A stretch of DNA of 38,892 bases, taken from Actinomycetes bacterium. GTDB taxonomy: Bacteria > Actinomycetota > Acidimicrobiia > Acidimicrobiales > RAAP-2. This document shows, piece by piece, positions 28,785 to 32,350 of the stretch. Below the pieces are notes generated by a model. That model saw nothing but the letters and a program-made list of their open reading frames with translations. It did no database searches and was not told the origin of the DNA. The stretch covers positions 1 to 38,892 of the forward strand of contig JAJYWF010000012.1 of the NCBI GenBank assembly GCA_021791635.1. Reading direction: 5' to 3'. The position numbers and the translations under genes are program-made. Each line of letters starts with the position of its first letter. Within the stretch, counting starts at the first letter, position 1.

Positions 28785-28886
28785 CCGACACTCCCGGCCC
28801 TGGCACCATGACCGCACAGCCTCCCCCGACCAGCACATCTGGTGCAAACACACCGTGGCTCCCGGCGTGTCACCTGGGCACCGAGT

Positions 28887-28966: not shown

Positions 28967-30280
28967 ATGGAGACGCCGTCCACCACCAGCACGACGCGAG
29001 TGGACACGGCCGAGGTACCCGCCATCGAGCTGCTCCACCTCTCAAGCGTCATCGGCCGACCGCTGGTCGACCGGACCGGAGATCGCCTGGGGCGCGTCAG
29101 GGATCTCATCGTCAGGGTCGGGACCAGCCCCCACCCTCCGGTGGTGGGCCTCGTCGTCCGCATCGGCGGGCGCGATCTGTTCGTGCCAATCGCCAAGATC
29201 GCCGGGCTCCGGCCGGGAAAAGCCGAGTTCGAGGGTGAGCGCGTCGACCTACGTCGCTTCGAGCGGCGTCCCGGTGAGCTGCTCCTGGCCCGGGACCTCA
29301 TGGCGCGCCACTTGATCAACTTCGTAGGTGGGCGCCTCATCAGGGCCAACGAGATCGAGCTGGCCCGTATCGACGGGACCTGGGAGGTCGTGGGGGTGGA
29401 CCCCTCCAGTCGCCCGGTCCTGCGGCGCCTGCTGCCCGGGCGCACGGGCGAGCGCGTGGCCCCCGGTTCCCTGGTGGACTGGGCGAGCATCGAGCCCTTC
29501 GTGGCACACGTCCCCTCGGCCCGACTGCACATCCCGTACCGCAAGCTGGCCCGACTCCATCCGGCCCAGATCGCCGACCTGGTCGAAGCGGCGTCCCACG
29601 AGGAGGGCGAGGAGATCATCGAGGCGGTCGGACGTGACCGCGAGCTCGAAGCCGACGTATTCGAGGAGCTCGACACCGAGCACCAGCTGGAGTTCATCGA
29701 CAGTCGCGCCGATGCCGACGCCGCCCGACTACTGGCCTCGATGGCTCCAGACGCCGCCGCAGACTTGATCGCCGAAGTGGACCAGGAACGCCGGCTGCCA
29801 ATCCTCAACCTGCTGCCCGAGCCCCAGCGCCGCAAGGTGCGCTCGCTGCTCAGCTACAACCCTGAGACGGCCGGTGGCCTCATGAGCCCGGACTTCCTCG
29901 CCCTCCCCGACTCCACCACCGTCGGCGAGACTCTGGCCGCGATCCACGCCAACACGGCACCACCCGAAGCCCTGAACGTGGTGTTCGCCACCGATCCGGG
30001 AGGTGATGTCGTCGGCTCGGTGTCGGCCGTCCGCCTCATCCAAGCCGAGCCATCCCAGCCGCTCTCCGCGGTCGTGCGGCCCAACCTGGCCCACTTGCAT
30101 GCCGACTGGGACCTGGGGGCCACGGTCCGAAAGATGTCCGACTTCAACCTCACGGTGGCGCCGGTCATGGACCACGATCACCACACGATGCTCGGTGTGG
30201 TGACGGTGGACGACGTGATCTCATCCCTCATGCCCAGCGGGTGGCGGCGCGACTTCGGCATCACGGCGGCGGAGGACTGA
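28967..30280 (+). CDS. PRC-barrel, MgtE-N and CBS-pair protein lacking the MgtE channel
   Basis: A 437-residue soluble protein. Residues about 15-165 form one or two PRC-barrel-like beta domains (LSSVIGRPLVDRTGDRLGRVRDLIV; ARDLMARHLINFVGGRLIRANEIEL). About 188-300 match the MgtE N-domain superhelix (LHPAQIADLVEAASHEEGEEIIEAV, LEFIDSRADADAARLLASMAPDAAADLI, RRKVRSLLSYNPETAGGLMSPDF). About 305-430 are a CBS pair ending VVTVDDVISSLMP. In MgtE the N and CBS domains sense cytosolic Mg2+ and lock the pore, but here the five-helix channel is absent. The next gene on the same strand is an NRAMP-type transporter, so this protein probably regulates or docks to it. The gene is preceded by TACAGT, 7 nt before the ATG. 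Confidence 0.88.
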   Translation: METPSTTSTTRVDTAEVPAIELLHLSSVIGRPLVDRTGDRLGRVRDLIVRVGTSPHPPVVGLVVRIGGRDLFVPIAKIAGLRPGKAEFEGERVDLRRFERRPGELLLARDLMARHLINFVGGRLIRANEIELARIDGTWEVVGVDPSSRPVLRRLLPGRTGERVAPGSLVDWASIEPFVAHVPSARLHIPYRKLARLHPAQIADLVEAASHEEGEEIIEAVGRDRELEADVFEELDTEHQLEFIDSRADADAARLLASMAPDAAADLIAEVDQERRLPILNLLPEPQRRKVRSLLSYNPETAGGLMSPDFLALPDSTTVGETLAAIHANTAPPEALNVVFATDPGGDVVGSVSAVRLIQAEPSQPLSAVVRPNLAHLHADWDLGATVRKMSDFNLTVAPVMDHDHHTMLGVVTVDDVISSLMPSGWRRDFGITAAED

Positions 30281-30370
30281 GCGGTGCGGCGCATGCGACG
30301 ACCGCTCTTGTTCCCCCGACGGCATCGTCACCCGTCGCGGCGGGCCGGCGGAAAACCCCCCAGCGCCTAG

Positions 30371-30549
30371 CCGCTTCCCGCGGCGACGGGAGAGCGCTCG
30401 GCACCCTTGGACGTGCCCGGTCGTCCCCCCCGACACAGGGCACCTCGAGGTGCCGGACGGGAAGCGGCGAGCCTCACGAAAGGTGACGGGCGCGAGAGCC
30501 GGTCAGTGAAGACCGCCTTTCCGTTCCGAGGGACCCGCCCACCGGGTCC
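30371..30549 (+). promoter_or_regulatory. Structured leader upstream of the NRAMP-type gene, riboswitch candidate
   Basis: The 335-bp gap 30281-30615 holds no gene but several strong pairings. CCGCTTCCCG (30371-30380) and CGGGAAGCGG (30458-30467) are perfect 10-bp inverted arms. They enclose about 77 nt that include the 16-bp palindrome GGCACCTCGAGGTGCC (30439-30454). Downstream are CGGTC-AGTGAA-GACCG (30500-30515) and GGACCCG-CCCAC-CGGGTCC (30531-30549). GAGGAGG lies next to the NRAMP ATG, so ribosome access could be controlled. I compared it by eye with what I remember of the M-box, yybP-ykoY (Mn2+), NiCo, glycine and ydaO classes and saw no consensus match. If it is functional it may be an undescribed metal-sensing leader. 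Confidence 0.5.
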
Positions 30550-30615
30550 GGGTCGGACACCGCACCCGGCACCCGGGGGGGCACACGTTGGAGACGAAGA
30601 TCGAGGAGGTGAACC

Positions 30616-32247
30616 ATGGCCGACGACCGGCCGACGATGCACGATGCCACCGCCGTGCTGGACGAAGCCCACACGGGCGACATCCAAGGCGCCTTCGGCA
30701 CCATCCGCCAGCACGACGTGGGCGCCCGGCGCTCGTGGGCGGCGCGCCTGCTGACCCTCCTGGCCATCATGGGACCGGGGCTGATCGTGATGGTCGGCGA
30801 CAACGATGCCGGGGGCGTCTCCACGTACGCCCAGGCCGGGCAGAACTTCGGGCTCACGCTGTTGTGGACGCTTCCCCTGTTGATCCCGGTGCTCATCGTC
30901 AACCAGGAGATGGTCGTACGCCTGGGGGCCGTGACCGGCGTCGGACACGCGAGGCTCATCAACGAGAGGTTCGGGAAGTTCTGGGGGGCGTTCTCGGTGG
31001 GAGACCTGTTCATCTTGAACTTCTTGACCATCGCCACCGAGTTCATCGGGGTCAGCCTGTCCCTGGGGTACTTCGGGATCAGCACGTACATCTCGGTCCC
31101 CATCGCCGCGGTGGCCCTGGTGGCGATGACCGCCACCGGCAGCTTCAGACGCTGGGAACGGTTCATGTTCGTGTTCATCGTCGCCAACTTCCTCGTCATC
31201 CCGCTGGCCGTCTTCAGTCATCCCAAGGCCGGACCCTTCTTCCACGACATGGTGGTCCCGGGCGTCAAAGGTGGGTTCAACTCCACCTCGGTCCTGCTCA
31301 TCATCGCCATCGTGGGCACCACCGTGGCACCTTGGCAGCTCTTCTTCCAGCAGTCCAACATCGTCGACAAGCGCATCACCCCCCGATGGATCAACTACGA
31401 GCGAGTGGACACGGTGGTCGGCTCGGTGGTCACGGTCTTCGCCGCCTCCCTCCTCGTCGCCGTCACGGCGGCGGCCTTCGGGGGGACCGCTCTGGCCGGT
31501 CACTTCACCAACGCCGAAGGGGTGGCACACGGGTTGACGCACTACGTGGGTCACGCCACGGGGGCCATCTTCGCCGTCGTCCTGCTCAACGCGTCGATCA
31601 TCGGAGCGGCGTCGGTCACCCTGGCCACGTCGTACGCGTTCGGCGACGTGTTCGGTGCCCGGCACTCCCTACACCGGAGCTGGAAGGATGCCAAGTTCTT
31701 CTACGGGGCGTTCACGGCCATGGTGGTGCTCGCCGCCGGCATCGTGCTCATCCCCGGAGCGCCCCTCGGGCTCATCACCACCGGCGTGCAGGCCCTGGCC
31801 GGCGTGCTCCTGCCCAGCGCCACGGTCTTCCTCCTGCTCCTGTGCAACGACAAGGAGGTGCTCGGACCCTGGGTGAACCGACCATGGCTGAACGTCGTGG
31901 CCGCCGTCATCGTCTCCATCCTGCTCATGATGTCGCTCGTGCTCATGGCCACCACGCTGTTCTCCCAGATCAACGTGAACATCCTCGCCCTCGTCCTCGG
32001 TGGGGTCCTCCTGGTCGCCTACGCCGTCGCCGGAGTCATCCTGCTCCGACACCGCTCCCGTCGGCCTCCGGAGCCGCCGGTCGCCCGCGACGTGCGGGCG
32101 AACTGGCGGATGCCCCCGCTCAACCTCCTGCGCCGGCCTACCTGGTCCCGTGGCCGGCTGGTCAGCATGTATGTCCTACGTGGCTACCTGGTGGTGGCCG
32201 TGGTGCTCTTGCTGGTGAAGGCGATCGAGCTGGGAGTGCACCGGTAG
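30616..32247 (+). CDS. NRAMP-family transporter with Mg2+-type (NRMT-like) metal site
   Basis: A 543-residue polytopic protein with the NRAMP fold. Helix 1 reads IMGPGLIVMVGDNDAGGVST: the metal-site DPGN becomes DAGG (64-67). Helix 6 reads TTVAPWQLFFQQSNIVDKR: MPHN becomes APWQ, so the metal-binding Met is Ala238. In classical Mn2+/Fe2+ NRAMPs that Met and the Asn of DPGN coordinate the metal. Their loss is described for NRAMP-related magnesium transporters (NRMT). The N-terminus has about 45 extra residues and the C-terminus extends past the last helices (ANWRMPPLNLLRRPTW, then a further helix). GAGGAGG precedes the ATG. Its neighbour carries Mg2+-sensing MgtE-N/CBS domains, which supports Mg2+ as substrate. 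Confidence 0.9.
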   Translation: MADDRPTMHDATAVLDEAHTGDIQGAFGTIRQHDVGARRSWAARLLTLLAIMGPGLIVMVGDNDAGGVSTYAQAGQNFGLTLLWTLPLLIPVLIVNQEMVVRLGAVTGVGHARLINERFGKFWGAFSVGDLFILNFLTIATEFIGVSLSLGYFGISTYISVPIAAVALVAMTATGSFRRWERFMFVFIVANFLVIPLAVFSHPKAGPFFHDMVVPGVKGGFNSTSVLLIIAIVGTTVAPWQLFFQQSNIVDKRITPRWINYERVDTVVGSVVTVFAASLLVAVTAAAFGGTALAGHFTNAEGVAHGLTHYVGHATGAIFAVVLLNASIIGAASVTLATSYAFGDVFGARHSLHRSWKDAKFFYGAFTAMVVLAAGIVLIPGAPLGLITTGVQALAGVLLPSATVFLLLLCNDKEVLGPWVNRPWLNVVAAVIVSILLMMSLVLMATTLFSQINVNILALVLGGVLLVAYAVAGVILLRHRSRRPPEPPVARDVRANWRMPPLNLLRRPTWSRGRLVSMYVLRGYLVVAVVLLLVKAIELGVHR

Positions 32248-32258
32248 CGGTCCGGCGG

Positions 32259-32326
32259 GCGGCGACTCCACCGCAGCGGCGACTCCACCGCAGCGGCGAC
32301 TCCACCGCAGCGGCGACTCCACCGCA
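32259..32326. repeat. Four perfect 17-bp tandem repeats
   Basis: GCGGCGACTCCACCGCA is repeated four times without mismatch (32259-32275, 32276-32292, 32293-32309, 32310-32326). Each unit begins GCGG and ends CCGCA, so the junctions read CCGCAGCGG and can fold. The array lies between the NRAMP stop and the acyl-CoA dehydrogenase promoter, 25 bp before TATTCT. It could terminate the upstream operon, bind a repressor cooperatively, or be a variable-number repeat. Confidence 0.9.
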
Positions 32327-32350
32327 GCGAGAGGCCTCGGGCCCAGGCGG

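Follow-up and report, generated by a model that had tools for sequence, protein, structure and literature searches.

A channel-less homologue of the MgtE cytosolic domain encoded beside an NRMT-type carrier: a candidate Mg2+ uptake unit

What does a protein built like the cytosolic half of the MgtE channel do when it is encoded next to a carrier of another family? The role of the MgtE-like partner of NRAMP-related magnesium transporters (NRMTs) has been a standing question since 2014. It is raised again by the window analysed here (the whole stretch of DNA, 38,892 nucleotides), which is one entire contig of an incomplete assembly (2.46 Mb in 155 contigs, 95.7% complete). The original prediction for this locus was that a Mg2+ sensor had been detached from its own pore and now controls an unrelated carrier. 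Two open reading frames were confirmed, which do not overlap and are separated by 335 bp. The features of the locus are as follows.

28967..30280, + strand: channel-less MgtE-type sensor, 437 aa, with a beta-barrel/PRC pair, MgtE_N, two CBS domains and a short C-terminal helix, and no transmembrane (TM) pore
29555..29863, + strand: MgtE_N domain, sensor residues 197-299 (Pfam)
29870..30229, + strand: two CBS domains, sensor residues ~302-421 (Pfam, AlphaFold2)
30281..30615, + strand: intergenic region, 335 bp, no Rfam match
30616..32247, + strand: NRMT-type carrier, 543 aa (Pfam, solved-structure search, signature residues)

The upstream gene had been described as an MgtE_N and CBS protein without a channel, and the Pfam search agrees. 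It recognised PRC (residues 24-76), MgtE_N (197-299) and CBS (368-421) and did not find the MgtE pore domain PF01769 in the sensor, which ends about 16 residues past the second CBS domain. The protein also falls below the TIGR00400 (MgtE) cut-off, with 94 against 232.75 bits. An AlphaFold2 model built from a 58-sequence alignment (pLDDT 91, pTM 0.83) predicts beta-rich domains at 22-88 and 104-145, a helical N domain at 191-295 and two CBS domains at 302-421. The plural "PRC barrels" of the original prediction is therefore structurally plausible, since the model gives two beta-rich domains, although Pfam recognises the first barrel only. When the model was searched with Foldseek, the ten best PDB matches were all MgtE chains, and target-normalised TM-scores against isolated MgtE cytosolic domains were 0.81-0.90. 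An in-frame ATG at 28808 is a possible alternative start; conservation begins near residue 18-22.

Ligand positions were mapped with the sequence of T. thermophilus MgtE, whose numbering equals that of the PDB alignment where checked. In that protein, Mg4 is bound by D91 and D247, Mg6 by D95, Mg7 by E59 and Mg5 by D226 and D250 (PMC5882242). Both Mg4 ligands are kept in the sensor (D262 and D416, with the MgtE pair D246/D247 retained as D415/D416 in the CBS region), as is the Mg6 ligand (D266), and the Mg7 ligand appears as Asp instead of Glu (D230). The full set of cytosolic Mg2+ ligands of MgtE is not present: the Mg5 pair is gone (D226 to N394, D250 to S419), Mg2 and Mg3 are lost, arginine stands in for both acids of the plug helix (E258R, D259R), and V355, R356, R371 and L395 stand where the ATP-site residues would be (site as in PMC5529423). 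Across 58 partners, D230, D262, D266 and D416 belong to the 25 of 437 positions with a conservation of 90% or more, and to the 10 conserved ones among 66 acidic residues. Because the Mg4, Mg6 and Mg7 acids are kept and conserved, a sensor that retains some of the MgtE sites is plausible. Compared with the MgtE cytosolic domain (2yvy, 2oux, 8gpv), the sensor shares the N and CBS fold and the Mg4 and Mg6 ligands; unlike MgtE, it lacks a pore, the plug-helix ligands, the Mg5 pair and the ATP site, and it adds the N-terminal barrels.

The carrier, whose ATG is preceded by the Shine-Dalgarno-like GAGGAGGTG, matches Nramp (PF01566, E 1.2e-75) and, at 99 bits, stays under the NCBIfam MntH cut-off of 430 bits. 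By a wide margin, its best solved relative is EleNRMT of Eggerthella lenta (7qia), which scores 223 bits; the next best NRAMP structure reaches 71 bits. NRMTs are defined by DxxG-TxxA/T in place of DxxN-A/CxxM (Ramanadane et al., PMC8806188). The motif changes had been read correctly in the original prediction: the carrier has D64-A-G-G67 and T235-T-V-A238-P-W-Q, that is, DAGG and TTVAPW instead of the canonical NRAMP/MntH motifs DPGN and (A/C)xxM, and this fits the published signature D64xxG67, T235xxA238. These four residues correspond to D55, G58, T224 and A227 of EleNRMT, and the further signature residues E142, W240, Q245 and Q392 align with its E133, W229, N234 and Q379 (Q and N are both non-protonatable). 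As in EleNRMT, the proton-path histidines of helix 6b are replaced by non-protonatable residues (W240, Q245), and the helix-10 glutamine (Q392) is kept. In 92 long-form sequences D64, T235, A238, P239 and W240 are invariant, and position 67 is G or A. Judged by sequence, this is an NRMT carrier. The signature does not by itself prove Mg2+ transport, because the NRMT residues put into a Mn2+ transporter did not confer it (PMC8806188). EleNRMT itself is far from the window carrier in the tree, at ~35-40% identity. Residues ~452-543 (31970-32244) form a C-terminal extension that contains a likely extra TM helix and the conserved motif WRMPP...RP..S; the extension is specific to a clade of ~540-aa NRMTs and absent from the shorter NRMTs aligned. 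The nearest named relatives of the carrier gene lie in metagenome-assembled genomes (MAGs) of Acidimicrobiaceae and other actinobacteria.

The pairing was checked across genomes and is conserved. In a phylum survey of 246 genomes, with adjacency taken as a full-length partner within 1 kb of an NRMT-like match, a partner adjoins 47 of the 67 NRMT-like genes and none of the 73 weaker, canonical NRAMP-type matches, which excludes a chance pairing (Fisher p 4e-33, uncorrected for kinship); 46 of the 47 pairs are on the same strand. A partner is present in 61 of 63 NRMT-bearing genomes. In the clade of the window carrier, surveyed in named genomes, a full partner adjoins the carrier at 56 of 75 assessable loci, which include MAGs of Acidobacteriota, Chloroflexi and Dormibacterota; it lies upstream in 48, downstream in seven and on the opposite strand in one. 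The downstream placement needs at least three changes on the tree (starred branches), so adjacency outlasts rearrangement. Partners were found on either side of the tree's deepest split, and genes 83-95% identical to EleNRMT adjoin one as well. Long open frames at some loci suggested a gene fusion, which was ruled out since the frames are separate. The identities of the two genes and the conservation of their pairing are, to our mind, practically certain.

The gene pair was already in the literature. According to Shin et al. 2014, the majority of NrmT genes adjoin a gene for the cytoplasmic domain of MgtE, many of them behind M-boxes, and these authors speculated on cytoplasmic feedback or chaperoning by the MgtE-like fragment (PMC4072509). 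The original prediction had suggested that the arrangement would be a new type of regulated Mg2+ uptake; as both the pair and the hypothesis had been published, it is an independent rediscovery. Similar to the pairs of that study (the Ca_c0685 operon, A. capsulatum ACP2976-2977), the window encodes, beside an NRMT, a homologue of the cytoplasmic domain of MgtE as a protein of its own. Unlike them, its carrier belongs to the separate ~540-aa clade with the C-terminal extension, its partner has the N-terminal beta-barrel pair, and it has no M-box. We found no paper that treats the PRC barrel together with MgtE. Shin et al. tested one pair, A. capsulatum ACP2976/2977, which lacks an M-box: in B. 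subtilis the carrier functioned as a transporter of Mn2+, and co-expression of the partner gave no further rescue in an assay that scored a gain of rescue, not inhibition (PMC4072509).

Two sets of genomes bear on whether the partner acts on the carrier. First, at 18 of the 75 assessable clade loci the carrier has no adjoining partner, and several of these 18 carriers stand behind an M-box, so the carrier is able to work without one. PRC-only or MgtE_N-only neighbours were sought at these carriers, and a single barrel-only fragment was seen, in a Novosphingobium MAG (L177:6184-6837), where a shortened partner of essentially two N-terminal barrels lies downstream of the NRMT. In one family (f25) the NRMT and the partner are on different contigs. 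Second, in 27 of 28 genomes that have a partner but no NRMT, among them Streptomyces-like genomes, a gene for a DUF1003 protein lies directly 3' of the partner on the same strand (two of the 27 are partial matches at contig ends). The same gene is directly 3' of three second partner copies in genomes with NRMT-like genes, which makes 30 DUF1003-linked partners; those three aside, there were no more among 21 partners checked in NRMT-bearing genomes. We found almost nothing in the literature on DUF1003. Both observations would suit a partner that does not act on the carrier. It would then be a general adaptor that responds to Mg2+, or a protein associated with the membrane, with PRC-type barrels that contact other proteins or RNA, and it would be kept near transporters through a shared response to Mg2+. 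We consider this unlikely. The neighbour is a membrane protein in both settings, which fits a regulatory subunit with alternative clients; an NRMT without a partner anywhere in the genome is rare (2/63); and adjacency has been maintained through changes of order and strand. The two settings also allow a broader proposal, which we put forward tentatively: the cytosolic half of MgtE may be a portable Mg2+-responsive regulatory subunit, whose pore decayed stepwise (a degenerate one of five helices, a single helix, none) and which has been put to new use with at least two membrane proteins that are unrelated, NRMT and DUF1003. If so, DUF1003 becomes a candidate Mg2+-related membrane protein.

At least 24 related loci have an M-box, a Mg2+ riboswitch, ahead of the pair or of the carrier. 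In the phylum survey, M-boxes mark 13 of the 47 adjacent loci. Nine of these riboswitches stand ahead of the partner, three ahead of a carrier placed first, and one (G220) between partner and carrier, where the carrier is 74% identical to that of the window. In the window carrier's own clade, an M-box stands before the carrier in three Alicyclobacillus loci and seven others, and ahead of the pair in one more. No M-box (RF00380) was found in the window, even at E up to 10, or in its genome, and degenerate copies were sought without success in seven close relatives. Neither CorA nor an MgtE pore was detectable in the host genome, and CorA was detected in 14 of 14 control genomes. This absence is probable and not certain, because the assembly may lack some 4% of the genome. 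Its P-type ATPases are all below the Mg2+-ATPase cut-off. From the M-boxes at related loci and the lack of CorA and of an MgtE pore, Mg2+ is likely the main substrate of the carrier. The carrier could instead be mainly a Mn2+ importer that resembles an NRMT, with a partner that is a sensor for Mn2+ or some other ion. This is how the A. capsulatum pair behaved in B. subtilis (PMC4072509), EleNRMT also carries Mn2+ (PMC8806188), and the window carrier is the single NRAMP-family gene of its genome, which leaves no other detectable NRAMP for Mn2+. Nevertheless, homologues up to 74% identical stand under Mg2+-sensing M-boxes, CorA and MgtE are otherwise missing from the genome, and the NRMT signature is complete, and we judge a Mn2+ importer to be quite improbable.

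The reading that we favour is a Mg2+ uptake unit made of an NRMT carrier and a soluble cytoplasmic protein derived from the cytosolic half of MgtE. The carrier would import Mg2+ uncoupled from H+, as in EleNRMT. At high cytoplasmic Mg2+ the sensor would bind the ion, most likely at the interface of the N and CBS domains, and in this form it would contact and restrain the carrier, much as the same domains close the attached pore in MgtE. The A. capsulatum test argues against this mechanism, as co-expressing the partner brought no additional rescue and what the carrier restored was Mn2+ uptake (PMC4072509). The loss of the Mg5, plug-helix and ATP sites, the window without an M-box, the 18 of 75 carriers with no adjoining partner, the split contigs of f25 and the DUF1003-linked partners without an NRMT also weigh against it. 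On balance we hold the mechanism as a whole, with regulation of the carrier by the sensor, to be probable, with moderate confidence. If the sensor does throttle the carrier, this would be a channel's regulatory domain that now acts in trans on a carrier with a different fold. The results predict which acids bind Mg2+ and which gene arrangements to compare, and they point to the relatives with a decayed pore and to the DUF1003-linked copies as a natural contrast.

The relatives of the sensor also indicate where it came from. Other NRMT-linked partners are 600-640 aa long and have a C-terminal TM region, in which Pfam recognises MgtE, weakly, in two of four long partners scanned. The AlphaFold model of one of them (pLDDT 76, with a low pTM of 0.39) places five TM-length helices after a plug-like helix, and its top Foldseek matches are full-length MgtE. 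The GGNTGNQ motif and the Mg1 ligand D432 of MgtE do not appear to be preserved in the long partners when compared by eye. The Eggerthella-type partners, encoded beside EleNRMT-like genes, keep one C-terminal TM helix, and the window type has none. These forms support descent of the sensor from a complete MgtE through loss of the pore. That the sensor was detached from its own pore is thus better supported than from the window alone, since some related partners still have a degenerate pore and others one TM helix. Such a graded loss might also be expected of a functionless remnant of a decayed channel, which is already unlikely because the partner is conserved and which we regard as very improbable: its soluble part is kept across several phyla with near-invariant acidic residues, and the copies examined have no internal stops.

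A conserved hairpin element, CGTTCWAAGGRGG-N5-CTGAAACCYCC-nAGTACC, lies directly after the sensor stop codon at 14 loci in related genomes; one of these (L099) has a compensatory change. Among 119 genomes of the class, three contain an exact match, a single one each and always at the sensor-carrier locus; the element has no match in Rfam. It may be a cis-regulatory RNA. The gap of the window (30281-30615) retains a remnant of it, GGAAAACCCCCCAG, near 30350-30366. At two loci (L059 and L102), an ORF of ~40 codons lies between sensor and carrier and, read by eye, overlaps the carrier start as TGATG, which suggests translational coupling. On the other side of the window carrier, between it and the acyl-CoA dehydrogenase gene, a short tandem repeat occupies 32267-32330, with a CGGCGACTCCACCGCAG-like unit present about four times.
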